A DNA stretch of 47,892 nt from the NCBI GenBank assembly GCA_002753395.1, contig PEAB01000019.1, positions 1 to 47,892 of the forward strand. The letters run 5' to 3'. Source of the DNA: Nitrospirae bacterium MYbinv3 (lineage in GTDB: Bacteria > Nitrospirota > Thermodesulfovibrionia > Thermodesulfovibrionales > Magnetobacteriaceae). The translations under genes and the position numbers were made by a program. Below the pieces are notes generated by a model. The model was not told where the DNA came from. It worked only from the letters and a program-made list of their open reading frames with translations, and searched no databases. Below, one piece after another: positions 120 through 15,763 of the stretch. Each line of letters begins with the position of its first letter. Position 1 is the first letter of the stretch.

Positions 120-1883
120 CTATGGGTCGAGGTTGTTTTTTTGTTGGTTTTTTAGTACGTACCACTTATTGAGGTTGTAGCCTATTCCGATGGGAGAGGG
201 GGCTATCCCTTTGAACCTCTTGTGGACTATCGGCAGGGCGTCGGGCACATACAAGAACACGTAGGGGACATCATCGGCAAGCATCTCTTGCAGTCTGTAA
301 TAGGCCTTCTTGCGTTTTTCTATATCAAAGGTTCGTCTGCCCTCTTCTAATAAGCGATCTACATCGTAGTTTTTGTAACTTATGAAGTTGAACTCCTTTT
401 CCCTTGTCTTACTCGAGTGCCATATATCATACTGATCTGCATCCATTCCGATTGCCCATCCTAAGAGTACGGCTTCAAAACGCTTCTTGTCGATAAACTC
501 GTTTATAAACGTGCTCCATTCAAGCGTACGGATGTTGACCCTTATGCCAACCTGTTTAAGCCGCCACTGAATAATGGTAGAGGTCTTAAGCCGTGCACTG
601 TTACCCATGCTCGTAAATATAGTAAACTCAAAGGGTCTCCCATCTTTGTACAGCACGCCGTCGCCGTGGGAGACCTTCCAGCCTGCCTGCGTGAGAAGCT
701 CCCTGGCCTTTTGCGGGTTGAACTCATAGCGCTTGACGTTAGGATTGTAGGGCCACGTATCTGGCACATAGGGACCGGTTGCCTCGCGACCAAGACCCAA
801 AAGGACTATACTTACAATCTCCTCCTTGTCTATGGCGTGGGCTATCGCCTGTCTCACTAATTTGTCTTTAAAGAGGGGGTGCTTGAGGTTAAATCCAAGA
901 TATGTGTATGTAAATACAGGGTAACGGTACTTATTAAAGTTCTCTTTGAAATACGCTGAATCTGTTTGCCTCTTGTATTGTACAGGCGTAAGCGGCATGA
1001 AATCTATACCGCCAGCCTTGAGCTCTAAAAACATCGTTGACTGATCTGGGATTACACGGAACAGGTAGTTGTCAATATATGGCCTGCCCTCAAAGTAATC
1101 GTGATTGGATGCAAGTAGCACCTCCTGACCAGATGTCCATTTTTTGAGCTTATACGGCCCCACGCCTACTGGGTTTCTAGTTAAGGGGCTTTTCGTTATG
1201 TCATTGCCATCAAGCAGGTGTTTGGGCAACACCGCCAGCGCACCCCAACTGATGAGGGCTGAGGCAAAGGGCTTGTCATAGGTCACCCTGAACGTGTATC
1301 TATCAATGACCTCAGCCTTCTTTACCTGCAAGAAGTCTTCTTTATAGGCTGTAGGAGTTTTCTCATCAATTATGGTCTTATACCCATACATAACGTCTTC
1401 TGCCGTGAACTCAACACCATCTGTCCATCTAACGCCTTTTCTGAGATGAAACGTAATCGTCAGGCCATCTATATCCCAACTCTCTGCAAGGTCACCTGTT
1501 ATAGAAAGATCAGGGGCATACTTGACAAGCCCGTTAAAGATTAATCCCGCCACCTCATGCGATATACTGTCTCCCGCAAGCATTGGTATCAGGATGCTGG
1601 GCTCTGCCGTAGTTGCCTGTATAAGGGTATCTCCGTAGGCTGATTTAGTGTCGTTTGATGGTGGGACATTGTCTGTCCTTGCAGTGTCAGAGAAAAGACA
1701 TAAAAATACTATGGCAACAAAAATACCCTTTAGCCCTATATACAGTTTATTGAAATTACGGGTGCGTAAGAAACTTGTGAGCTTGTCAAAAAAGGGGAGG
1801 CTCTGCCTCCCCTCAGACCCCTCCGCAAGGGGACCAGTCCCCTTGACCCCCTTAAAATAAATCTTTTTTCCCATTAATTTCAT
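120..1883 (-). CDS. Peptide-type ABC transporter substrate-binding protein (SBP family 5) with repeat-derived N-terminus
   Basis: Periplasmic binding protein of the DppA/OppA/NikA type, which captures peptides or similar solutes for an ABC importer. Family signatures are the segment around EPSILIPMLAGDS, the NGLVKY and LAESW blocks, the FHLRKGVRWTDG motif and AIDKEEIV. A hydrophobic signal segment (KLYIGLKGIFVAIVFLCLFS) starts only near residue 46. Residues 1 to about 41 are encoded by a dispersed repeat (1760-1893), including the only ATG upstream of the signal segment. No ribosome binding site precedes that ATG, and no ATG, GTG or TTG lies between repeat and signal segment. The native start was therefore probably lost. 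It lies 12 bp after the DUF401 second fragment on the same strand. No permease genes are in the window, so the transported solute is unknown. Family call is firm; start and expression are doubtful. Confidence 0.85.
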   Translation of the reverse strand: MKLMGKKIYFKGVKGTGPLAEGSEGRQSLPFFDKLTSFLRTRNFNKLYIGLKGIFVAIVFLCLFSDTARTDNVPPSNDTKSAYGDTLIQATTAEPSILIPMLAGDSISHEVAGLIFNGLVKYAPDLSITGDLAESWDIDGLTITFHLRKGVRWTDGVEFTAEDVMYGYKTIIDEKTPTAYKEDFLQVKKAEVIDRYTFRVTYDKPFASALISWGALAVLPKHLLDGNDITKSPLTRNPVGVGPYKLKKWTSGQEVLLASNHDYFEGRPYIDNYLFRVIPDQSTMFLELKAGGIDFMPLTPVQYKRQTDSAYFKENFNKYRYPVFTYTYLGFNLKHPLFKDKLVRQAIAHAIDKEEIVSIVLLGLGREATGPYVPDTWPYNPNVKRYEFNPQKARELLTQAGWKVSHGDGVLYKDGRPFEFTIFTSMGNSARLKTSTIIQWRLKQVGIRVNIRTLEWSTFINEFIDKKRFEAVLLGWAIGMDADQYDIWHSSKTREKEFNFISYKNYDVDRLLEEGRRTFDIEKRKKAYYRLQEMLADDVPYVFLYVPDALPIVHKRFKGIAPSPIGIGYNLNKWYVLKNQQKNNLDP

Positions 1884-1895: not shown

Positions 1896-2411
1896 TTATC
1901 TATAAGCATTAAGGATCACGTATTGCGCCAGTGACACTAGAAAGATCAGTAGTGTTGCAGGGATCGTCTTTTTATATATCCCCCACATGTCTGCCTTAAA
2001 AAACTCCCGCGTAAGTATCAGACACACGTGTACGGGGGAGAGAAGCACCCCGATAAAACCACAAGCAAAGGCAAGCGAAAAGGCATAAGGGGTCATCTCC
2101 GGCATACTGACAAACAGGGGAAAGGTGCTGCCGACAAAGGCCAATGTAAACCCCGTCAAAAGCCCGCCGACAAAGGGCAAGATAATGACAATTGACAACA
2201 GCGGTATATGATACTGCGTAAAAAATCTACTCAGATTACCCACAGCGCCAGATGCTTCAAGCGTCTCCTTAAACAAGACTACACCAAGGATAAGCACAAG
2301 GAGATCCAAAGAAAAACCATACTTAAACACCTTTAAGATCGATTCAAAATTGTATCTATAATAAACAAGCAGCAGCGATACCACAACAACCAATCCAACG
2401 GATAACCTCAC
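1896..2411 (-). CDS. DUF401 family membrane protein, C-terminal fragment after in-frame TAG
   Basis: This 171-residue reading frame continues the DUF401 protein encoded at 2412-3092 in the same frame; only one TAG codon (2412-2414) separates them. It would restart at a GTG directly after the stop. It contains about four hydrophobic helices (VGLVVVVSLLLVYY, LDLLVLILGVVLF, LLSIVIILPFVGGLLTGFTLAFVG and a C-terminal one) and a conserved GLLTGFTLAFVGSTFPL stretch typical of this transporter-like family. Added together the two parts are about 398 residues, the usual full length. No ribosome binding site of its own is seen. It may be a dead fragment, a translation restart product or part of a readthrough protein; a nonsense mutation or sequencing error is the simplest reading. 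Confidence 0.6.
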   Translation of the reverse strand: MRLSVGLVVVVSLLLVYYRYNFESILKVFKYGFSLDLLVLILGVVLFKETLEASGAVGNLSRFFTQYHIPLLSIVIILPFVGGLLTGFTLAFVGSTFPLFVSMPEMTPYAFSLAFACGFIGVLLSPVHVCLILTREFFKADMWGIYKKTIPATLLIFLVSLAQYVILNAYR

Positions 2412-3092
2412 CTATAACACCATTACCATAACAATGAGCGCCAGCAACGGCAGGAAACTCAGAAGAGCCCTTTTATTAAACCTTCCTTCAACCTTAAACG
2501 TCCCCGTAACGCCCTTCATGCTAAACATATGCCCTATCAACAGCATAGTGACAGCAAAGCTCATATTGAGGGCAATAAACTGCCTCAATCCGATGCTCGT
2601 AACCAGCGAGGCAAGCACGATGCCCGGATACAGGGGGAGTATAAACTCCCAGGGGTGTCTGTACCAATAGTTGGTAAAGGCCTTGTCCTCCTGCGATAGG
2701 TCAAGCCCCTTGGCGGATTCCTCCACCATCGGGCATGAAAAATACGCCCCCCCAACCGAGGGCAACATCCCTATCAAAAGGGGCATCGATACTATCACAA
2801 AACGCTTGTTTCTCAAAACTCCCCTCATGGTCTCAGACATGTTCTTTAATACATCGTTTTCTCTAAGTATCAATTCAAACATGCGTATAAACGTCAACGC
2901 CACGGTCAACTCTAAGGTCACTTTTGACGTTAGAGAACCGTATAAGGTCTTGAGTACATGGACAGGCGTCATAAGATACAATAGACAGACAAGGGCCGAT
3001 GCCCCCAATAGTACGTAGCCGACGTTCCATTTCCTTCGCAGCAGAATGACAATAGCGATAAAGGTCAGCGTTATCTTTGCAATGTCATACAT
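2412..3092 (-). CDS. DUF401 family membrane protein, N-terminal fragment
   Basis: A 226-residue integral membrane protein with about six hydrophobic segments and the segment MPLLIGMLPSVGGAYFSCP, a DUF401 signature; the family (about 400 residues) is uncharacterised but transporter-like. The frame ends in TAG at 2412-2414 and continues in frame for 171 further codons. TAG also ends the neighbouring binding-protein gene, so TAG is a normal stop in this genome, which argues against recoding. The start lies 2 bp after the stop of the CCA-adding enzyme gene, so the two are probably cotranscribed. Function of either half alone is unknown. Confidence 0.6.
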   Translation of the reverse strand: MYDIAKITLTFIAIVILLRRKWNVGYVLLGASALVCLLYLMTPVHVLKTLYGSLTSKVTLELTVALTFIRMFELILRENDVLKNMSETMRGVLRNKRFVIVSMPLLIGMLPSVGGAYFSCPMVEESAKGLDLSQEDKAFTNYWYRHPWEFILPLYPGIVLASLVTSIGLRQFIALNMSFAVTMLLIGHMFSMKGVTGTFKVEGRFNKRALLSFLPLLALIVMVMVL

Positions 3093-3094
3093 GT

Positions 3095-4555
3095 TTATGC
3101 CGTTACCCTATGCTCTAAGTAGGCATTTACGACAGAGAGCGCCTCCTCCCTTGAGTTAATTACACCCTCAAGCGCCATTTCATTTACGTGTTCCAGGATT
3201 AGCTTAAAATCAGACGACGGCCTTAGACCAAAGCCCTCAATCAGGTCATGGCCAGTAATAAAGCGCTGCCTCTGACTACGAGGCATGTACTCCTCGTTGT
3301 AAAATCTCAGTAACTGTCGTGCCGTTTGCATAACGTCATCCGTATAGGGTAACGCCTTTGCCTTGGTATCTGCAAGTGCAATGATTATCATGGCATATAC
3401 ATCTGCCCCAACCTTGTTCAATAGCCTCACCATCGCACGCTTTTTATCAAAGTGATTTGCCATCACCTCCGAAATAGAAGGATTCAGTCTCATGTGATTG
3501 AATACGAGCCTGCCAGCGTGCTCCACCTCCCGCTGAGAGGCCTTAAACCGTAGGAGTATGTCCCTGGTCAGGTCAGCGCCAACAGCGCTGTGTCTATGAA
3601 AGGTAACTCGTCCATCAGCATCGACCGCCCTTGTCGAGGGTTTTCCCACGTCGTGAAGCAGGATGGCCAGCTTTAGAATCGGTTTAGTGCCGGAGGGGGT
3701 GCTGAGGTATTGTCTAAACCCATCTGAATAAGGAAGGTCTTCAAGGCTTCTGAGCACCGCCTCGGCAGCCTTGTATGCCGCCATCGAGTGCTGCAATACG
3801 TCTAAGCTGTGGTATTGGTTCTGCGTTACCCCTTTTGCGGCATACAGCTCAGGGATTAGCTCAAATAAAAGGCTGTTGTGTATCATCGACTCAAGGGCAG
3901 CAGTAGAGCTGTCTGAGGCAAGGATCGCCTTTAACTCGCTCCATATCCTCTCAGAGGCTGCCCTGTGAATCAACGACTTTAACTCTTCGATTGTGCGTAA
4001 GGTGACGGCCTCGATCTTAAATCCAAGTTGAGAGCTAAACCGATATGCACGTAAAAGTCTCAAGGGGTCATCTACAAGGTTTTCCCTTAAGACCATTCTT
4101 ATAACACCACCCTTTAGATCGTCTAACCCTAACGTAACATCCACGGTTGCGTTTATCTCATAGCGGGTGAGGTTATCCAGGGGCATGGCCAGGGCGTTGA
4201 TCGTAAAATCCCTGCTTAGGAGGTCTGTTTTGATATCTCCCCCCCGCAGCGCAGTAAAATCAAACACGCAGTCGCCCTTAATTACCCTGGCTGTGGGAAA
4301 CCTCTCATGCAGCCATACGAAGCTGCCCCCGATTGCTCGTGCACATGCCTTCGCAACGACAACTGGGTCTCCCCTTAGCGCAACGTCTACGTCCTTAATC
4401 TCCCGTCCCATAAGGAGGTCCCTAACCGTGCCACCCACAGCATACATCTCCCCTCGCGGATAGGCATCAAGCAGATAGTCAATAATGGTGGATTGTAGTT
4501 TGTTTAAACTAACAACGTTCTTTTCCATATGTTCGCAATATAATGTCTGAACCAT
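3095..4555 (-). CDS. CCA tRNA nucleotidyltransferase / poly(A) polymerase family protein with HD domain
   Basis: Adds or repairs the 3' CCA of tRNA (class II nucleotidyltransferase), or could be a poly(A) polymerase of the same family. The head domain has the diagnostic GGTVRDLLMG (residues 41-50) followed by KDVDVAL with metal-binding Asp55 and Asp57. The RNA-binding region DDPLRLLRAYRFSSQLGF and an HD phosphohydrolase domain (LLHDVGKP, His301-Asp302) follow, as in bacterial CCA enzymes carrying 2'-phosphodiesterase-like HD modules. Length 486 is normal. The first ATG is used here; a second in-frame ATG at 4528 is equally plausible because neither has a clear ribosome binding site. It heads a tight minus-strand run with DUF401. 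The tRNA gene in this window lacks an encoded CCA, consistent with need for the enzyme. Confidence 0.88.
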   Translation of the reverse strand: MVQTLYCEHMEKNVVSLNKLQSTIIDYLLDAYPRGEMYAVGGTVRDLLMGREIKDVDVALRGDPVVVAKACARAIGGSFVWLHERFPTARVIKGDCVFDFTALRGGDIKTDLLSRDFTINALAMPLDNLTRYEINATVDVTLGLDDLKGGVIRMVLRENLVDDPLRLLRAYRFSSQLGFKIEAVTLRTIEELKSLIHRAASERIWSELKAILASDSSTAALESMIHNSLLFELIPELYAAKGVTQNQYHSLDVLQHSMAAYKAAEAVLRSLEDLPYSDGFRQYLSTPSGTKPILKLAILLHDVGKPSTRAVDADGRVTFHRHSAVGADLTRDILLRFKASQREVEHAGRLVFNHMRLNPSISEVMANHFDKKRAMVRLLNKVGADVYAMIIIALADTKAKALPYTDDVMQTARQLLRFYNEEYMPRSQRQRFITGHDLIEGFGLRPSSDFKLILEHVNEMALEGVINSREEALSVVNAYLEHRVTA

Positions 4556-5267: not shown

Positions 5268-7565
5268 CTATGTATAGCATCGTGACTGTATGCCTTCCAG
5301 GTATCCAATGGTCTTATCTGTTATCTCAGCCGAGTTTGCCTCATCTGTATTTATGTGCATCTCTAACCTGTACTTAGGGCTTACCATAACAAGGCAGTCA
5401 CCAAAAACAACCTCTCTATCACCTGCTACCCTCACCCTTATCACGTCTCTGTCTCGGAGACCAAAACGCATGGCGTCCTCAGGACTCATATGCACATGCC
5501 TCCTGACACATATAACACCCTTATCTAACTTCAACTGCCTGCTATCTGACCGAAGTATAATACCTGGCGTCCCCTCGATATCACCAGAGTTCCTGATTGG
5601 TGCGTCAACACCCAGCCTGAACTCCTCTGTCCTTGATATCTCTACCTGCGTCTCATCTCTAAAACCACGGGCCAGTCTTACCGCCTCGAGCTTGCCCTTT
5701 GGACCAATAAGGTCTACGCTCTGACAGACAGCCTGGCCGATTTGGCCTTCTGCTCCTAAAAGCGTGTTATAGTCTCTCTCACTTAAGTGCACGTGGTGTG
5801 TTGATATGGTTATGGGGATCTCATTTTGGATGTGCCCTTTAATATCTTCTGAAGTCTTTGATCTATTCACTGCATGGATGATCTCTCTGGCAATCATGCG
5901 TTCCTCATCGGCTGCCACGACTAGTATCTTGACACTTGAGCCTTCCTGGGAGATGTCGGATATACAGCCGCGTTGTACCCTTGCGCTTCTGTTGACCTCA
6001 ACGTCAAGGATAATGCCAAGATTATCAAGTCCCTGACATATCCTCGCCCTTATTTCGGCTGAGTTCTCTCCAATTCCCCCTGTAAAGAGCAGCACATCTA
6101 GACCTCCCAATGCCGCTATATATGACCCAATATACTTCTTCGCCCGGTAACAGAACGAGCTTAGTGCCCTCTCTGCCTTGACATTACCAACCTCGGCGGC
6201 TGCAAGTATCTCTCTCATGTCATTACTAAGCCCGCTAACTCCCTTTAGACCGCTTTCCTTGTTCAGTATCTTGTCGAGCTTATCCACGCCCAAACCGTTT
6301 TGCAGTAGGTACAATACAAGACCTGGGTCGATGTCCCCGCACCTTGTCCCCATCACAAGCCCTTCTAACGGCGTTAGTCCCATTGTGGTATCGAGACTCC
6401 GTCCGTGGTCTATGGCGCAGATTGACGCCCCGTTTCCTAAGTGGCACGATATTATCTTTAGCCCATCGACGGGACGTCTTAAGTAGACTGAAGCCATCAT
6501 GGCAACAAAGTGATGGTTTGTTCCATGAAAACCGTATCGTCGTATGTACCTCTCCTTTGACAACTCATAAGGGAGGGCGTAATTATAAGCCTTCTGCGGC
6601 ATGGTCTGATGAAACGCTGTATCAAAGACGGCCACAGATACGGCATTGGGCAGGAGCCTTTCCATCTCCTGTATACCAGCCATGTTGTAGGGATTGTGCA
6701 GGGGGGCCAGGGCTGCACAACCCATGATGGCCTCTTTTACCTCTTTGGTTATGACCACGGAGCCAGAAAACCTGTTCCCGCCATGTACTACCCTATGACC
6801 AACTGCCTGTATTTCGCTAAAATCAGTAATAACACCGATTACTGTATCTGTGAGTGCATCTACCATAGCCGAGAAGGCTGCTGCTATGTCCTTAACAACA
6901 TCGGGGCGCTGCACCTTGCCATTTATCGCCTTGATTTTATGGATTGAGTTGGCAGCACCTATGTTTTCAACCAAGCCTTCAAACATGGGTTCAGACCTGG
7001 ATGTGTCAAACAACGAATATTTTAAAGAAGAGCTTCCGCAGTTGATAACAAGGAGTTTTAGCGGTTCTTTCACTGACGAGAAATTCAGATCATAGGGGTC
7101 GGAGTTATACACAAACAGCGACCTTTGTCTTTGCCTGAACTGGGTGTTTTGTTCTCTGATGGTGAACCTCTCTGTTATTAAGCTCGCAAACTTTGTGAGT
7201 GTTGATAGATTTTGTAGCATTACCAGTGAAAAGACCTCCCTTGGCAGTTTAATGACACTGGCCTCCTGTACTGCAACAATATCTGCAATAGCAGGTTCGC
7301 CAGTCACTACGGAAATTTCACCAAATACATCCCCCCTGTAAAGATTGTATAGTATGACACAACTGTCATCCTCTTCAGAACAAGTGACTTCTAATTTACC
7401 ATTATAAACTATCCATAGATATCTGCCAATTTCGCCTGCCCTCATAACATACTGCGATGGCTTATACTCAACAATCTCAGAAGCCTGCCACAGTCGTTTA
7501 AGCCACTCTTCGCTTAAGTCCGAGAACACCTCCACGCCCGATAGAAACCTTATTAAGTCCTTCAT
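5268..7565 (-). CDS. Fusion: cyclic-nucleotide-binding-like domain, acetate kinase, PduL phosphotransacylase
   Basis: One chain appears to carry both steps of acetyl-CoA to acetate conversion with ATP formation. Counting from an upstream GTG (7604): residues 15-150 form a CRP-type sensor fold (GDVFGEISVVTGEPA, 91-105), though the usual ligand-binding Arg is replaced (EPAIAD). Residues 182-580 are acetate kinase with NCGSSSLKYS (188-197), GHRVVHGG (269-276), FDTAFHQTMP, YGFHGTNHHF, HLGNGAS, TPLEGLVMGTRCGDIDPG and FTGGIGENSAEIR, so catalytic motifs are present. Residues 595-770 are a PduL phosphate acyltransferase with zinc-ligand motifs HHVHLS (603-608) and RHVHMS (702-707) and the H-x3-DEAN end (750-757). 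Start placed at ATG 7565 because AAGGAG sits 7 bases upstream; the GTG at 7604 has no such site. Inferred role: substrate-level phosphorylation, perhaps gated by a small ligand. The sensor has no DNA-binding domain. Confidence 0.9.
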   Translation of the reverse strand: MKDLIRFLSGVEVFSDLSEEWLKRLWQASEIVEYKPSQYVMRAGEIGRYLWIVYNGKLEVTCSEEDDSCVILYNLYRGDVFGEISVVTGEPAIADIVAVQEASVIKLPREVFSLVMLQNLSTLTKFASLITERFTIREQNTQFRQRQRSLFVYNSDPYDLNFSSVKEPLKLLVINCGSSSLKYSLFDTSRSEPMFEGLVENIGAANSIHKIKAINGKVQRPDVVKDIAAAFSAMVDALTDTVIGVITDFSEIQAVGHRVVHGGNRFSGSVVITKEVKEAIMGCAALAPLHNPYNMAGIQEMERLLPNAVSVAVFDTAFHQTMPQKAYNYALPYELSKERYIRRYGFHGTNHHFVAMMASVYLRRPVDGLKIISCHLGNGASICAIDHGRSLDTTMGLTPLEGLVMGTRCGDIDPGLVLYLLQNGLGVDKLDKILNKESGLKGVSGLSNDMREILAAAEVGNVKAERALSSFCYRAKKYIGSYIAALGGLDVLLFTGGIGENSAEIRARICQGLDNLGIILDVEVNRSARVQRGCISDISQEGSSVKILVVAADEERMIAREIIHAVNRSKTSEDIKGHIQNEIPITISTHHVHLSERDYNTLLGAEGQIGQAVCQSVDLIGPKGKLEAVRLARGFRDETQVEISRTEEFRLGVDAPIRNSGDIEGTPGIILRSDSRQLKLDKGVICVRRHVHMSPEDAMRFGLRDRDVIRVRVAGDREVVFGDCLVMVSPKYRLEMHINTDEANSAEITDKTIGYLEGIQSRCYT

Positions 7566-8365
7566 CTTAGCACTCCTTAAATCTGCTGTAAAAAGATTGC
7601 TCACCGTCGCTGCAATGACAATCAGACTTATTTTACAACAGTATTAGATTATATTGATAGGGAACAAAGATAAATGGTGCATAAGAATCACCATGACCTT
7701 ACGGACACAACAAGCAATGAAAGTCCTTGATTATGTAGGATATTTTTAGACTTTCATATAAAAGTCGTGGGAAATTATGTCATTCCCCTGCTCAAGCTAG
7801 GGGCAGGCTCTGCGAAAGCAGGAATCTATTAGCTTGTGGATTACCCTGTCTTGCACGGCAATGACAAGACGCCCCATGAGTTTCTTATGCGCCCAATATA
7901 AAGCTATAGGCCTCTCGTTGAACGTGGCATGTTTTATGCAATTACCTATGGCATGGAAAAAGAAGTCGTTATAGGATATATAGCAGTTATGCAGGTTAAG
8001 GGTAATATGTTAATAATAGGATTACCAGTATCTGAAAGCATTGATTGTATTATAGAGCATATGCAAGATACGTATTCGGCAGTTGTAGTTAACATCAAAG
8101 ACATGTGGATTAACTGATAAAGGCATAGAGGTAAAATTTTCCTTTGAATGAATATATTTCACTGTGTTTAGGTAATATTAGACTATTAACTCGGAGATAT
8201 ATTAAGGTATTGCCTTTTTTAGATAGTTTATATCGTTTAAGCGAGCTATGGTGATGTAAATGCCAATATTATTAACTATATGACCTGTAATACAGCGTGT
8301 AGAGAGAGTTTAACTGGCGCTCTTTTCAGGACTGATTATTATGTGGGTTAATTGTTGAAAAAAAC
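7566..8365. other. Gene-poor stretch with repeat remnants
   Basis: About 800 bp with no convincing gene. An AT-rich segment follows the start of the acetate kinase fusion, then a repeat at 7676-7894. An open frame at 7929-8117 (plus, 62 codons, ending VVVNIKDMWIN) has no ribosome binding site and no recognised family; it may be a remnant. The rest (8120-8360) is AT-rich with no signal seen. Confidence 0.4.
7676..7894. repeat. Repeat bounded by GGTGCATAAGAA / TTTCTTATGCGCCC ends, with nested palindrome
   Basis: The ends match the inverted termini of the element at 8940-9097, but the interior differs: it carries a hairpin (GACTTTCATATAAAAGTC) and a palindromic unit beginning GGGAAATTATGTCATTCC that recurs, inverted, near 25870-25910. 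It therefore looks like a composite or nested insertion. Confidence 0.5.
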
Positions 8366-8648: not shown

Positions 8649-8721
8649 GCCGCCGTAGCTCAATTGGCAGAGCAGCTGATTTGTAATCAGCAGGTCGCGG
8701 GTTCGAATCCCATCGGCGGCT
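8649..8721 (+). tRNA. tRNA-Thr (anticodon TGT)
   Basis: Cloverleaf of 73 nt: acceptor stem GCCGCCG/CGGCGGC, D arm around GCTCAATTGGCAGAGC, anticodon stem GCTGA/TCAGC with loop TTTGTAA giving anticodon UGU, and T loop TTCGAAT. The T stem has one C-A mismatch and one G-U pair. Discriminator base is T and CCA is not encoded. It stands alone between repeats. Confidence 0.95.
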
Positions 8722-9195: not shown

Positions 9196-11178
9196 ATGAA
9201 ATTTGGAGCAATAACACACTACCTAACCGGTGTGGCAGTACCAGTCTTTTCACTCAGGACTGTAGAAGGCTGCGGTATAGGTGAATTCCTTGACTTAGTA
9301 CAGTTTGGAACCTGGTGTAAAAAAGTCGACTTTGATGTGATACAAATCCTGCCTATCAACGATACCGGCGGAGACTCCTCCCCATATAATGCCCTAAGCG
9401 CCTTTGCCTTACACCCTATCTATATCCGTCTACAGGCGTTGGCAGATGATCACCTCAACTGGAAAGCTGAGTTTGAACAGGAGATAAAAGAGGCCGCTGT
9501 CAGGTTGAATGCACTTGCAGGCGTAAACTACAAGGAAGTCGGTCAGTTCAAGTTCGCAATGCTTAAGAAGATATATAAGTTAAACAGAGACAAGATACAT
9601 GCCAATCATGCCATCCTCTCATGGATTAAGTCAAAGCCCTGGTTAAAACAGTACGCCGTCTACCGCGTCTTGAAAGACATCAATGAGCAAAGACACTGGA
9701 AGGACTGGGATAAACTCAACAACCCAACAAATGAAGATATAGACCTCTTCTGGAACAAAAACATTGATGATGTAATGTTCTATGCCTGGATACAGTACGA
9801 ACTGGAAGACCAGTTGATAAAGACCTCCAAAACCCTTGAAGGCATGGGGCTGCGCCTCAAAGGCGACATACCAATACTCATCAACGAGGACAGTGCCGAC
9901 GTTTGGGCACAGCGCCAATACTTTGACCTGAGCATGAGGGCAGGGGCGCCGCCGGACATGTTTTCTGACAGGGGACAAAACTGGGGCTTCCCTTGCTACA
10001 ACTGGGCAGTGCTGGAGAAGGAAGACTATAAGTGGTGGCGTCAAAGGTTAAAACAGGCAGCAACCTTCTATCACGCCTATCGCATAGATCACGTCCTAGG
10101 CTTCTTCCGCATATGGCAGATACAGGAGTTAGAACGCAACGGCGTCTTAGGCAGCTTTGAACCGGCCTCATGGATATCAAACAAAGAACTTAACAATGCC
10201 GGTTTTGATGACGAAAAGATAAAGCGGTTTCAGATACCAACCCATCCAAGATCCTATGTCAGAAGCCTCTTTGGTAATGCCTCCGAACACGTCATTAATA
10301 AATATTTCGTAAACAGCGACACCGACAACATCATATTTTCTGCCAACATATCCAGTGAATATGACATATTATCTCTACATGAGGAATCATATATAAAGGA
10401 CAAGCTGTTGGAGCTATACTGGGACAGACTACTGATTGCAAACCCAAAGGGGAAGAATCAGTATCAACTTACGTGGTTTTACTACAGGACAAGGGCATTC
10501 AATAACCTGTTTGAAGAAGAACGAAGACAGTTAAGCCAGATTTTTGAGCGAAACAAGGCCAGACACGAAGAGGTATGGCGGGTCAATGGCCGGAGGCTCT
10601 TAAAGATGATGGCAGAGACAACAGATATGCTTGTCTGCGCCGAGGACCTTGGGGCAATACCTGAGTGCGTACCTGATGTCCTTTCAGAACTTAAGATACT
10701 TGGTCTGAGAATCGAACGATGGGCCAGGGAATATAAAAAACCAGATGCCCCATATATAGATCCGGCCAACTATCCGCGCCTTTCTGTGGCCTCACCCTCA
10801 GTGCACGACACATCTACCTTGAGGGGATGGTGGGAGGAACATAACTGGGATAGGAATTACTACTTCTCCTTGCTCGGATTAAATGGAAATATGCCTGAGT
10901 ATTTGACAACAGAGGTCGTCGCTAGGATTATCAGGAGAAACCTGAATGCTAACTCACTTATAACTATAATATTGCTGCCCGATCTGCTGTCTCTATACTA
11001 TAACCTCAGAACTGCCAGCGCAGAGGAAGAGAGAATAAACGTGCCGGGCACCTGCACCGATAAGAACTGGACGTATCGGATGAAAGACCCTGTACAATTC
11101 CTCATAGAGTATAATGAATACAACATGTATTTAAGAGGCATTGTAGATGAACGCCGCAACCGGCCCCTGAGCGAATAG
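9196..11178 (+). CDS. malQ: 4-alpha-glucanotransferase (GH77)
   Basis: Transfers maltodextrin segments between alpha-1,4-glucans in the cytoplasm. GH77 signatures: LPINDTGGDSSPYNALSAFA near the N-terminus, GDIPILINEDSADVWA, the GQNWGFPCYNW block, the nucleophile region YRIDHVLGF (Asp298), the acid/base region CAEDLGAIPE (Glu483) and SVHDTSTLRGWW (Asp538). At 660 residues it is longer than the basic 500-residue amylomaltases and resembles the extended forms. GTGAGGAAAA about 6 bases before the ATG is the likely ribosome binding site. First of three consecutive alpha-glucan genes (38 bp before glgX), all plus strand, so probably an operon. Together they fit glycogen restructuring and breakdown; no synthase, pyrophosphorylase or phosphorylase is in the window. 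Confidence 0.95.
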   Translation: MKFGAITHYLTGVAVPVFSLRTVEGCGIGEFLDLVQFGTWCKKVDFDVIQILPINDTGGDSSPYNALSAFALHPIYIRLQALADDHLNWKAEFEQEIKEAAVRLNALAGVNYKEVGQFKFAMLKKIYKLNRDKIHANHAILSWIKSKPWLKQYAVYRVLKDINEQRHWKDWDKLNNPTNEDIDLFWNKNIDDVMFYAWIQYELEDQLIKTSKTLEGMGLRLKGDIPILINEDSADVWAQRQYFDLSMRAGAPPDMFSDRGQNWGFPCYNWAVLEKEDYKWWRQRLKQAATFYHAYRIDHVLGFFRIWQIQELERNGVLGSFEPASWISNKELNNAGFDDEKIKRFQIPTHPRSYVRSLFGNASEHVINKYFVNSDTDNIIFSANISSEYDILSLHEESYIKDKLLELYWDRLLIANPKGKNQYQLTWFYYRTRAFNNLFEEERRQLSQIFERNKARHEEVWRVNGRRLLKMMAETTDMLVCAEDLGAIPECVPDVLSELKILGLRIERWAREYKKPDAPYIDPANYPRLSVASPSVHDTSTLRGWWEEHNWDRNYYFSLLGLNGNMPEYLTTEVVARIIRRNLNANSLITIILLPDLLSLYYNLRTASAEEERINVPGTCTDKNWTYRMKDPVQFLIEYNEYNMYLRGIVDERRNRPLSE

Positions 11179-11216
11179 ACAACAATAGCCAGGAATAAAG
11201 GAAAGGATAGACATAA

Positions 11217-13310
11217 ATGCTTTATTTAAAACGAGTAGGAAACCTGGAGATATTCAGAGGCAGTCCTCTGCCAATGGGCACTACGGTAAAGAGGGAAGGG
11301 GTCAACTTTTCTGTATTCTCAAAACACGCCACTGCCGTAACACTCGTGATCTTTGCATCAGGGGAAAGAGAGCCTGTAAACAGGGTTAAACTACATCCAT
11401 GTTTCAACAAAACAGGGGATATCTGGCATGTATTTGTCAAGGGCATAGGCGCTCAAACACGCTACGGCTATTGCATGGATCGCAATGAGTCAGACATGTA
11501 TCCTATACACCGGTTCAACAAAGACAACGTTCTGATAGACCCGTATGCAAAGGCGCTAACTGGAGCCTCCACCTGGGGTAAGATTTATACACGCAGGGGA
11601 GACGACCAACAGCATGCTTACATAAACACCCGCCGCTCCCTGGTATTAGATGACGATTATGATTGGGAATACGATAAACCCTTAGAGATACCTCTGCGAA
11701 ACTCAATAATTTACGAGGTACATGTGCGCGGCTTTACCGCCCATCCCTCATCAAACGTACAGTCTCCTGGCACATACGCAGGGATAATCGAAAAAATACC
11801 CTACCTTAAGAATTTAGGGGTCACAGCCATTGAACTATTACCAATAGCAGAGTTTGAGGAGATGGACTCAGACCGTATCAATCCGGCCACAGGTGAAAAG
11901 CTTATAAACTTCTGGGGCTACCAGCCTATCTCCTTTTTTGCACCAAAGGCATCGTATGCATCTGACAGCATAAACGGTCAGCAGACTAGGGAATTTAAGC
12001 ACATGGTCCGTAAGCTCCACGAAGCCAACATCGAGGTAATCTTGGACGTTGTCTTTAACCACACCGCCGAGGGTAACGAGATGGGGCCGTCATTCTCCTA
12101 CAAGGGCATTGATAACTCAACATACTACATCGTCGACCCGATAGACGGGCACTATCACAACTACTCAGGTTGTGGAAACACGCTAAACTGCAACCATCCC
12201 GTGGTACGCAACATGATCCTGGACTGCCTCAGATACTGGGTAACCGATATGCACGTAGACGGTTTTAGATTTGATCTTGCCTCGATACTTGGACGCGGCC
12301 GAAACGGTTCAGTACTAAGTGATCCACCGCTCTTAGAGAGGATAGCGGCCGATCCCATACTGGCCAACACAAAGCTGATAGCAGAGGCGTGGGATGCAGC
12401 CGGCCTGTACCAGGTTGGAACGTTCCCTAACTGGGGACGCTGGGCAGAGTGGAATGGGAAGTTCCGTGATGACATTAGACGCTTTGTCAGGGGAGAAAGC
12501 GGCATGGTTCAGCACCTGGCCGCCAGGCTCATTGGCTCTCCAGAGCTGTATAAGGAAAGCAATCGAGCGCCTTATCACAGCATAAATTTCATTACCAGTC
12601 ACGATGGCTTCACACTCTATGACCTTGTCTCTTATAATGCGAAACATAACACTAACAACGGCGAGCAAAATAGAGACGGCATGGATGAAAACCTCAGTTG
12701 GAACTGTGGCTGGGAAGGACCAACTGACTCCTACGATATAAACACTCTTCGTAAACAGCAGATGAAAAACTTTGCCACACTCATGTTGATGTCCCACGGT
12801 GTTCCTATGATCCTTGGCGGTGATGAGATAGGCCGTACTCAGTGCGGCAACAATAATGCCTATTGTCAGGACAATGAGATCAGTTGGTTCAACTGGGAAT
12901 TGACTAAAACAAATGCAGACATCTTTAGGTTCTTCAAACTGTTAATCCAGTTTAGAAAGCTGCATCCCCTCTTGAGACCTGAGAGCTTCTTAGACGATGA
13001 TACAACCTCTGTTTCATGGCACGGCATCAGAGTCGATAGACCTGATTTTTCTTTTGATTCAAGGTCGCTTGCAATGATGTTATGCGGCGAGGGGGTACAG
13101 AGCGATATCTATCTTATAGCAAACTCATACTGGGAGGTTCTGAACTTCAGACTGCCAAGACCCTACACCGGCAGAAGGTGGTTCAGGTTTATTGACACAG
13201 CACAGGAACACCCCTATGATATCTCAGAGATAGATAACGAGGTCTTTCTAAATGACCAAACCTACTACAAGGTCTGGCCACGCTCTGTAGTTGTGCTGGT
13301 GAGTAAGTAA
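11217..13310 (+). CDS. glgX: Glycogen debranching enzyme, isoamylase type (GH13)
   Basis: Hydrolyses alpha-1,6 branches of glycogen. Residues 10-110 form the N-terminal carbohydrate-binding fold (GATVKREGVNFSVFS-like, here MGTTVKREGVNFSVF). The GH13 barrel follows with YEVHVRGFT, DVVFNHTAEG, nucleophile VDGFRFDLAS (Asp353), acid/base IAEAWDAAG (Glu390) and transition-state TSHDGFTLYD (Asp463); GGDEIGRTQ and NEISWFNW are GlgX/TreX signatures. Length 697 is typical. A purine-rich AAGGAAAGGA precedes the ATG. Lies between malQ and glgB and most likely shares their mRNA. Catalytic residues are all present. Confidence 0.95.
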   Translation: MLYLKRVGNLEIFRGSPLPMGTTVKREGVNFSVFSKHATAVTLVIFASGEREPVNRVKLHPCFNKTGDIWHVFVKGIGAQTRYGYCMDRNESDMYPIHRFNKDNVLIDPYAKALTGASTWGKIYTRRGDDQQHAYINTRRSLVLDDDYDWEYDKPLEIPLRNSIIYEVHVRGFTAHPSSNVQSPGTYAGIIEKIPYLKNLGVTAIELLPIAEFEEMDSDRINPATGEKLINFWGYQPISFFAPKASYASDSINGQQTREFKHMVRKLHEANIEVILDVVFNHTAEGNEMGPSFSYKGIDNSTYYIVDPIDGHYHNYSGCGNTLNCNHPVVRNMILDCLRYWVTDMHVDGFRFDLASILGRGRNGSVLSDPPLLERIAADPILANTKLIAEAWDAAGLYQVGTFPNWGRWAEWNGKFRDDIRRFVRGESGMVQHLAARLIGSPELYKESNRAPYHSINFITSHDGFTLYDLVSYNAKHNTNNGEQNRDGMDENLSWNCGWEGPTDSYDINTLRKQQMKNFATLMLMSHGVPMILGGDEIGRTQCGNNNAYCQDNEISWFNWELTKTNADIFRFFKLLIQFRKLHPLLRPESFLDDDTTSVSWHGIRVDRPDFSFDSRSLAMMLCGEGVQSDIYLIANSYWEVLNFRLPRPYTGRRWFRFIDTAQEHPYDISEIDNEVFLNDQTYYKVWPRSVVVLVSK

Positions 13311-13363
13311 ACACAAAAATAAACGCAACAGTGAACTTAGAGAAAAAATAAAAGGAGGCAAGA

Positions 13364-15763
13364 ATGAATCTACAAGAACAGATCGATCAAGTTATCAATG
13401 CAACCAGTTCAGACCCATTCTCCGTTATTGGTAGTAACCCAATTCAGTTGAACAACAGTGATGCCATAGCAGTAAGGGTATTCAACCCAGATGCTAAAGA
13501 GGTGTACGTGGTACGAACAGATACCACAAAGAAGATGTATCAAGCTACCAGACTTAGACAGGAGGGTTTTTTTGAGGCAATAGTTGAAAAAACTAATGTC
13601 TTCTTCCCGTACAAGTTAAACGTCGTATACCATGATGACACAAGTGCAGACCTGTATGATCCTTACTCATTCGGGCCCGTGCTGTCTGATTATGACCTGC
13701 ACCTCATAAGCGAGGGCACTCACTATAAGAAGTATGAGAAGTTAGGTGCTCATGTCACTACGATAAACGGCATCTCTGGCGTGTTTTTTGCCGTTTGGGC
13801 GCCAAACGCACTGAGGGTGAGCGTAATAGGCGATTTTAACAAATGGGACGGAAGAAGACACCAGATGCGCTTACGCGGATCTTTTGGCATCTGGGAGATC
13901 TTTATACCAGAACTGAAAGAGGGCGACATATACAAGTTTGAGATAAGGGGGCGGTACGGCGACTACCTAGGGATCAAGTCAGACCCATATGGTTTCTACG
14001 CAGAGGTTAGACCCAAAAGCGCATCCGTTGTCTATGACATCAACAAATATATATGGAACGATGAGGAATGGCTTAAGAATCGCAGACAGCGTAACTGGCT
14101 TGAAGAGCCGGTCTCCACGTACGAGGTACATCTCGGTTCATGGCGCAGGATCCCAGGTGAGGACAACCGGTGGCTAACCTATAGGGAGTTGACAGAAACG
14201 CTTATTCCATACGTTAAATACTTAGGCTACACCCACATACAGTTACTACCAATAACGGAGCATCCACTTGATATCTCGTGGGGATATCAGCCAGTTGGGT
14301 ATTTTGCATGTACCTCACGCTATGGCACACCAGATGATTTCATGTATTTTGTTGATAAATGCCATGAAAACAATATAGGCGTCATAATGGATTGGGTGCC
14401 TGCTCACTTCCCAAGGGATTCACACGGACTTTCCTATTTTGATGGCACAGCCCTGTACGAACATGGTGATCCACGTAGAGGCGAACACAAGGATTGGGGC
14501 ACTCTGATCTTCAATTACGGAAGAAATGAGGTTTCCAACTTCCTGATAGCTAATGCCCTGTTCTGGCTGGACAAGTACCACCTGGATGGTCTGAGGGTGG
14601 ACGCCGTTGCATCTATGCTCTATCTTGATTATTCAAAAAAACAGGGTGAATGGCTCCCAAATAAGTACGGCGGCAAGGAAAATATCGAGGCTATAGACCT
14701 TTTAAGACGATTCAACGAGGTCTTACATGGTTATCATCCGGGGATATTAACGATAGCCGAGGAGTCAACATCGTGGCCTATGGTGTCGCGTCCAACGTAT
14801 TTAGGGGGTCTTGGATTCAGTCTAAAATGGAATATGGGCTGGATGCACGACATGCTTTTGTATTTTCAGAAGGACCCGGTGCACAGAAAATATCACCAAA
14901 ATAGCCTCACGTTTGCCCTTCTTTATGCCTTCACTGAAAACTTTGTCAACGTCTTTTCACATGACGAGGTGGTACACCTTAAGCGTTCCATGTTAGATAA
15001 GATGCCTGGAGACATGTGGCAGAAGTTTGCTAACCTCAGAACTCTTTATGCCTACATGTACGCTCAGCCTGGCAAGAAACTCCTCTTCATGGGCAGTGAG
15101 TTTGGTCAATGGAAGGAATGGAATGTCGACGTTAGTCTGGACTGGCATCTGACCGATTATGAGCCTCATAAGAAACTCATGGATTTTGTCAGAGACCTAA
15201 ACCACATATATAAGGAAGAGAGGGCCTTGTACGAGGTAGACTTCAATCATCAAGGCTTTGAATGGGTCGACTTTAGCGATTATACAAACAGTATTGTGTC
15301 ATTCATAAGAAAGGCAAAGGATTCGGATGATTTCATCCTATGCGTGTTTAACTTCACCCCTGTGTCTAGAACAAACTATAGGGTAGGCGTGCCCAAGGGC
15401 GGTTACTATAAAGAATTGCTCAACAGCGATAGTGAAAGATACTGGGGCAGTAACGTCGGTAACTGGGGCGGCTTTCACGCCGACAACGTCTGGTGGCAGG
15501 GGCGGCCTTTCTCGCTAAACTTACAGATCCCTCCTCTAGGCGCCGTATTTATGAAACCGTTTAGAGAAGAAGTAATTACTATCACACCAGAACCAGTATG
15601 CGATGTTAGCGATACAACTGAACAACAGCAGACTGCTGTAGACACTCCCCAGCAGCTTGAACACTCACAGGCTCCAACAGAAAAACCAGTTGAGGCAAAG
15701 ACAGAAATCACTGATAAAGAGACTAATAGCACCAAAGAAACAGTTATAAAAATAAGCAAATAG
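13364..15763 (+). CDS. glgB: 1,4-alpha-glucan branching enzyme (GH13) with unusual C-terminal tail
   Basis: Introduces alpha-1,6 branches into glycogen. Two N-terminal beta domains are present (first around DPFSVIG, residues 17-23; second around VFFAVWAPNALRVSVIGDFN), then the barrel with YEVHLGSWRR, GYQPVGYFACTSRYGTPDDF, nucleophile LRVDAVASML (Asp413), AEESTSWP (Glu466/467) and SHDEVVH. The enzyme body ends near residue 740 (GAVFMKPF). About 55 further residues rich in Thr, Glu, Gln, Pro and Lys follow (STKETVIKISK end), with no known fold and absent from most GlgB proteins. AGGAGG precedes the ATG by 6 bases. Last gene of the malQ-glgX-glgB set, 53 bp after glgX, immediately followed by a repeat tract. 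Confidence 0.95.
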   Translation: MNLQEQIDQVINATSSDPFSVIGSNPIQLNNSDAIAVRVFNPDAKEVYVVRTDTTKKMYQATRLRQEGFFEAIVEKTNVFFPYKLNVVYHDDTSADLYDPYSFGPVLSDYDLHLISEGTHYKKYEKLGAHVTTINGISGVFFAVWAPNALRVSVIGDFNKWDGRRHQMRLRGSFGIWEIFIPELKEGDIYKFEIRGRYGDYLGIKSDPYGFYAEVRPKSASVVYDINKYIWNDEEWLKNRRQRNWLEEPVSTYEVHLGSWRRIPGEDNRWLTYRELTETLIPYVKYLGYTHIQLLPITEHPLDISWGYQPVGYFACTSRYGTPDDFMYFVDKCHENNIGVIMDWVPAHFPRDSHGLSYFDGTALYEHGDPRRGEHKDWGTLIFNYGRNEVSNFLIANALFWLDKYHLDGLRVDAVASMLYLDYSKKQGEWLPNKYGGKENIEAIDLLRRFNEVLHGYHPGILTIAEESTSWPMVSRPTYLGGLGFSLKWNMGWMHDMLLYFQKDPVHRKYHQNSLTFALLYAFTENFVNVFSHDEVVHLKRSMLDKMPGDMWQKFANLRTLYAYMYAQPGKKLLFMGSEFGQWKEWNVDVSLDWHLTDYEPHKKLMDFVRDLNHIYKEERALYEVDFNHQGFEWVDFSDYTNSIVSFIRKAKDSDDFILCVFNFTPVSRTNYRVGVPKGGYYKELLNSDSERYWGSNVGNWGGFHADNVWWQGRPFSLNLQIPPLGAVFMKPFREEVITITPEPVCDVSDTTEQQQTAVDTPQQLEHSQAPTEKPVEAKTEITDKETNSTKETVIKISK

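Follow-up and report, generated by a model that had tools for sequence, protein, structure and literature searches.

Paired copies of a sensor-like, acetate kinase and PduL fusion in a Nitrospirota family, changed in opposite enzymatic halves

Channelling inside a single polypeptide is the usual explanation for fused enzymes. Multidomain proteins in which PduL (PF06130) is fused to acetate kinase (AckA), without an encapsulation peptide, were mentioned in 2016 by Erbilgin et al., whose remarks on these proteins suggest channelling (PMC4784909). The two-metal site of PduL comprises His48, His50, Glu109, His157, His159 and His204, with Arg103 and Ser127 as phosphate residues (PMC4784909). For AckA, individual residues have been given roles in binding acetate, the transition state and the metal (PMC3475010; PMC4390882).

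We analysed a stretch of 47,892 nucleotides from Nitrospirae bacterium MYbinv3 (the window), which encodes an AckA-PduL fusion preceded by a sensor-like domain. An earlier, sequence-only reading of the window had supposed that AckA-PduL fusions might already be annotated; they were indeed mentioned in 2016. Relative to those remarks (PMC4784909), the fusion itself was known before; what is new is that paired copies have decayed in opposite halves.

Architecture and distribution of the fusion

The window gene is a single frame on the minus strand (5271-7565, 765 aa) without internal break (Table 1), and its start at ATG 7565 is taken as right because a ribosome-binding site, AAGGAG, lies 7 nt upstream (7573-7578). 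Pfam, with NCBIfam in agreement, places cNMP_binding, Acetate_kinase and PTAC/PduL domains in that order, with 62.8 bits for PF00027 (cut-off 27.5), 478.7 bits for PF00871 (cut-off 22; TIGR00016, 476.8 bits, cut-off 293.4) and 172.2 bits for PF06130 (cut-off 25). The sequence-only reading had seen a CRP-type ligand fold, AckA and PduL in one 765-residue frame; Pfam confirms all three, and the 765 codons run uninterrupted from one part to the next. All three domains are also folded in the AlphaFold model (pLDDT 82.9, pTM 0.78).

Table 1. Features of the window and of related loci (locus handles precede positions outside the window).
Feature	Position	Strand	Remarks
Substrate-binding-protein-like gene	120..1883	(-)	Third conserved neighbour, 6 copy-B loci; named from sequence
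DUF401 membrane protein gene	1896..3092	(-)	Conserved copy-B neighbour; orthologue L134 5285-6511
CCA-adding (tRNA nucleotidyltransferase-like) gene	3095..4555	(-)	Conserved neighbour of copy B, 10 genomes; named from sequence
Three-domain fusion gene, copy B	5268..7565	(-)	ATG 7565, stop at 5268; coordinates with stop
PduL/PTAC domain, residues 584-748	5322..5816	(-)	Pfam PF06130, 1e-50
Site of 9-residue deletion in PduL loop with Gln74, residues 608-613	5727..5744	(-)	Alignment; model pLDDT <50
Acetate kinase domain, residues 170-560	5886..7058	(-)	Pfam PF00871, 1e-143, full length; active-site residues all intact
cNMP-binding-like domain, residues 32-118	7212..7472	(-)	Pfam PF00027, 3e-17
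Phosphate-binding cassette region, FGEISVVTGEPAIAD	7257..7340	(-)	Ribose Glu83 kept; Ala92 for phosphate Arg
Third-protein genes of genus g2	L128 8457-9509; L132 8462-9520; L148 8291-9358; L151 6057-7109	(-)	

The FGE motif is retained in the sensor-like domain, which is followed by AckA and not by the C-terminal helix-turn-helix of CRP/FNR proteins; no HTH family scored above cut-off in the window protein (Pfam, NCBIfam). Across 33 aligned fusions the ribose-binding Glu83 is invariant, and the residues listed for the phosphate-Arg position of the cassette do not include Arg; fusions other than the window protein carry Ser, Thr, Ala or Glu there, among others. The earlier remark that the Arg-for-ligand position is substituted is right, the window protein having Ala92. 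That the Arg is missing across three phyla argues against ordinary cAMP or cGMP, and to judge by the cassette the domain probably has another ligand, or none.

Among 18 relatives tested in the family of the window's genome (f1), 17 have at least one fusion gene or part of one, the exception being a genome that is 56% complete (G003). In a search of 396 genomes from the phylum, 13 genomes of this family had PduL, and outside the family only two had it, as a standalone protein. Matches to magnetochrome (PF18509) in 12 of 12 family genomes tested, against 0 of 7 other members of the order, lead us to infer that the family is magnetotactic. Outside the family the three-part order recurs in frames of 770-837 aa, in at least 8 of 294 Planctomycetota genomes (counting G402) and 5 of 395 genomes of Desulfobacterota, the phylum of a Smithella MAG, and two-part AckA-PduL forms are likewise present; we therefore rejected the idea that the fusion is unique to the family. 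Most genomes compared here are draft assemblies, several of them incomplete, and two copies (copy A of G006 and of G004) are cut by contig ends. A sequencing, assembly or binning artefact was nonetheless rejected, since three-domain proteins recur in many genomes, including on contigs of 4-6.8 Mb: the homologues are not separate genes only, and the fusion of three parts is genuine and of long standing. The sequence-only reading knew of no described three-part version. In the open-licence literature searched, neither a three-part form nor an AckA pseudoenzyme turned out to be described; the protein itself, however, is not unique, being common in the family and present in two more phyla. In one genome of the Desulfobacterota set (G708, L227 2094-4543), the cNMP-AckA and PduL parts lie in overlapping, different frames, which is either a frame error or a natural split.

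Opposite halves of copies A and B

The window's genome holds a second full-length fusion (contig 162), 52% identical to the window protein, which we call copy A. Copy A forms one clade in both the AckA tree (100/99) and the PduL tree (97/80); because this clade contains six genera, the duplication predates them. Copy B is not a single supported clade in the AckA tree, and the AckA-only genes of genus g2 were assigned to it by exclusion. Synteny at the copy B locus extends over ten genomes from four genera, in which the fusion or AckA gene is accompanied by the CCA-adding enzyme and DUF401 genes. We identify the window gene as copy B of this duplicated fusion of cNMP-like, AckA and PduL domains. 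In the window the DUF401 gene is split by an in-frame stop at about 2412-2414, either a sequencing error or a young pseudogene. On the other side, genes for a GH77 4-alpha-glucanotransferase, an isoamylase/GlgX-type enzyme and GlgB stand in a row at 9196-15763 (+), with a tRNA-Thr (8649-8721) between them and the fusion gene. We rejected these glycogen genes as an operon of the window copy, since they lie on the opposite strand, 1.6 kb off and behind a tRNA, and do not belong to the conserved neighbours of copy B.

The AckA domains of the fusions were aligned to some 65 standalone AckAs and numbered after the M. thermophila enzyme, with the 47 positions conserved in at least 97% of the standalone enzymes as the invariant set. 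Copy B (17 genomes) is changed at 0-2 of these positions, and none of the 17 proteins departs from wild type at more than one of 20 active-site positions; the window domain is changed at 0 of 47 and has N7, R91, D148, H180, N211, R241, D283, R285, G331 and E384. In contrast, copy A (14 genomes) is changed at 2-8 positions. G9R, replacement of D283 (by Tyr in 13 proteins, Cys in one) and replacement of R285 (by Lys, Glu, Thr or Leu) occur in 14 of 14, and N211H in 13; in the M. thermophila enzyme, N211S and N211T cause 200-fold and 44-fold losses (PMC4390882). The copy A residues for acetate (V93, F179, P232, R241), the transition state (R91, H123, H180) and the metal (N7, K14, D148, E384) are retained apart from isolated exceptions: R91, H123, H180 and D148 are present in 14 of 14 and R241 in 13 of 14, R241M being found in copy A of the window's genome. 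L122 is Phe or Met in some copy A proteins. Judged by these residues, copy A AckA has lost its nucleotide side and retained its acetate side. In single-copy proteins (G007, Desulfobacterota and most Planctomycetota) both active sites are kept, with E334Q and changes at N335 common to several of them.

A copy A AckA still active with another phosphoryl acceptor, for instance phosphate or pyrophosphate as in the Entamoeba enzyme, would suit a domain that keeps its acetate-side and transition-state residues, is changed only on the nucleotide side and is under strong purifying selection. Yet the marks published for PPi-dependent acetate kinases (PMC5517563), a longer PHOSPHATE2 loop and the absence of Gly331, are not seen in copy A, and its G9R and S10 changes fall in PHOSPHATE1, in which Ser10 is important for the M. 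thermophila enzyme (PMC4390882). We regard this reading as very improbable.

For PduL, the fusion domains were aligned with a small reference set of about 26 standalone PduLs and mapped to R. palustris numbering, and 33 positions conserved in at least 97% of that set were taken as invariant. Copy A is changed at 0-1 of the 33 positions, and every catalytic residue present is kept in 14 of 14 genomes (one is cut by a contig end); copy A of the window's genome has the metal ligands, Arg103 and Ser127, as well as Q74, P101, G143, A154, R194 and D206. Copy B PduL, in contrast, is absent in 7 of 17 genomes, missing from G001/G002, G006 and genus g2, and changed at 4-18 positions in the other 10: genus g3 has R103K, G009 has S127A and a broken loop, and G008 has lost five of the six metal ligands together with Arg103. 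On the tree this amounts to at least four outright losses or inactivations and three partial ones. In genus g2, a third protein of about 350 aa (Table 1) has an intact PduL, preceded by what little is left of the C-terminal part of AckA; it is apparently a fusion reduced to PduL. The window PduL has kept equivalents of the six metal ligands, Arg103 and Ser127. Among the 33 invariant positions, however, five are changed (R194M, P101G, G143R, A154V, D206N) and one is deleted with the Gln74 loop segment, and its branch in the PduL tree is 0.63 long, against 0.01-0.28 for copy A tips. It is a PduL homologue by sequence, with its activity in doubt.

These results bear on the earlier proposal that the window protein alone carries the whole route from acetyl-CoA to acetate, acetyl phosphate being passed from PduL to AckA in one chain and the sensor adjusting the flow. 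Both enzymatic domains are present, with all AckA residues and the PduL metal and phosphate residues; the genome has retained a PduL part where the sister species G001 and G002 have none; and AMP-forming Acs is not found here although 11 of 11 other family genomes searched have it, so pressure for such a route may be higher. The proposal is weakened, however, by the nine residues missing from the Gln74 loop and the low model confidence there, by the five substitutions and the long branch, and by the paralogue: the window PduL is the eroding half of a pair in which copy A, with a nucleotide-blind AckA, already supplies an intact PduL to the same genome. A self-sufficient window enzyme seems unlikely to us.

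In pairwise comparisons, AckA has a dN/dS of 0.05-0.13 in copy A and copy B alike, whereas for PduL it is 0.03-0.13 in copy A and 0.13-0.33 in copy B; in several pairs dS approaches or exceeds 1, but the pairs with low dS give the same picture. Identity to the intact PduL of a Desulfobacterota genome (G903) is 67-74% for copy A and 37-58% for copy B. Together these figures indicate that the altered AckA of copy A is under strong purifying selection, maintained and not drifting, and that copy B PduL is under relaxed selection. The copy A AckA domain seems, from this selection, to be retained as a structural or regulatory domain. In the AlphaFold model of copy A (pLDDT 84.5, pTM 0.81) all three domains are folded, matching acetate kinase 1g99 with TM 0.91 and PduL 5cuo with TM 0.95-0.96. 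Low confidence in the AckA loop at 395-412 was rejected as proof of decay, as copy B is low there too.

Simple gene decay would make the dead halves roleless leftovers and the pair two separate enzymes with useless appendages. It accords with the repeated loss of copy B PduL, with the dead look of that domain in G008, and with the genus g2 protein that keeps a mere AckA remnant. But copy A AckA is full length in 14 of 14 genomes, carries specific substitutions shared among them and evolves as slowly as copy B AckA, unlike neutral leftovers. We hold decay alone to be possible but doubtful.

A proposed divided route to acetate

No true Pta was found with PF01515 in 11 of 12 family genomes tested, the window's included. 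A Pta doing the job was rejected because the family's matches, except in G009, reach 28-36 bits in frames of about 345 aa; we read these as PlsX-like. The only true Pta among the family genomes tested (G009:C72:18957-19919, 433 bits) is in a genome whose copy B PduL is among the most eroded. CODH/ACS is present in the window's genome. AMP-forming Acs (TIGR02188) had no match in that genome (96.6% complete), either a gap or a true loss. One marine magnetotactic member of Nitrospirota is reported to differ from its freshwater relatives by possessing a Pta-AckA pathway (PMC10278575); the relatives compared here carry a putative AckA-PduL route, which a Pta search would miss.

The explanation we favour, and think reasonably probable, is a division of labour at the level of domains, in which acetyl phosphate would be made on copy A and used on copy B, possibly in mixed oligomers. 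An ancestral fusion would have carried both working enzymes and been duplicated in the ancestor of the family. Copy A would then have become a phosphotransacetylase (acetyl-CoA + Pi to acetyl phosphate + CoA) whose AckA, having lost the nucleotide site, was retained as a folded domain that possibly senses acetate or acetyl phosphate; copy B would have become an acetate kinase (acetyl phosphate + ADP to acetate + ATP), its PduL eroding or gone. Acetyl-CoA, with CODH/ACS present, would thus reach acetate by A and then B. The two probably need each other, and they might plausibly assemble by dimerisation of their AckA, PduL or sensor domains. We infer the activities, their direction, the partnership and its regulation; the architecture, paralogue pair, residue pattern, selection and lack of Pta are observed in the sequences.

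Several points count against such a division. The window PduL, with its six metal ligands, Arg103 and Ser127, may be active; R285 changes alone lower kcat of the M. thermophila enzyme only about 7-9 fold (PMC4390882); and copy B lacks support as a single clade in the AckA tree, in a comparison of mostly draft assemblies where some pairs have a dS close to 1 or higher. A more elaborate version, which we consider rather unlikely, is an obligatory mixed complex of the two fusions, each with one half blind to nucleotide or substrate, in which copy A AckA would bind acetyl phosphate or acetate without nucleotide and gate PduL, copy B would be the kinase, and a ligand other than a cyclic nucleotide would set the flux at the sensor; if true, it would be a domain-level duplication-degeneration-complementation of a channelled pathway.

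On the division of labour that we prefer, duplication of a fused two-step route was followed by loss of one step from one copy and of the other step from its twin, repeatedly in one of them, while the altered kinase half of the other has stayed conserved. The family thus offers a replicated natural test of what a fusion serves once catalysis is lost, a candidate nucleotide-free sensor of acetate or acetyl phosphate derived from a kinase, and a putative acetate route in organisms without Pta. It would be misleading to annotate these genomes as encoding two bifunctional enzymes that are both complete, or as lacking a Pta-AckA route.

Comparison with known systems

In Planctomycetota the fusion adjoins phosphoketolase, GlgX-type and glycogen phosphorylase genes, and acetyl phosphate may therefore come from phosphoketolase there, as in the phosphoketolase-AckA pathway. 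The window's family differs: phosphoketolase was found in only 1 of 12 genomes searched and was rejected as its source of acetyl phosphate. A GlgX homologue flanks the fusion in three Planctomycetota, and one neighbouring frame (L220 1994-5311 (+), 1106 aa), close to phosphoketolase and glycogen phosphorylase genes, combines RpiB, transaldolase and phosphoglucose isomerase domains.

The sensor-like domain has the fold and FGE motif of cyclic-nucleotide-binding domains (PKG, the PKA regulatory subunit, CRP), but those have the phosphate Arg and the fusions do not; the cAMP-independent PKA regulatory subunit of trypanosomes (6h4g) likewise departs at this Arg, which we take as a lead only. Compared with the acetate kinase of Methanosarcina thermophila (1g99, 1tuy), the window AckA has the same active-site residues, whereas copy A is without the nucleotide-side ones. 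Compared with R. palustris PduL (5cuo), the fold and metal ligands are the same, but in the fusions PduL stands behind AckA, and in the window copy its loop is shortened. Finally, the AckA-PduL proteins of Erbilgin et al. are among the nearest described relatives, and the 2016 remarks on them (PMC4784909) make no mention of a sensor domain, duplication or complementary decay, the features that set the present pair apart.
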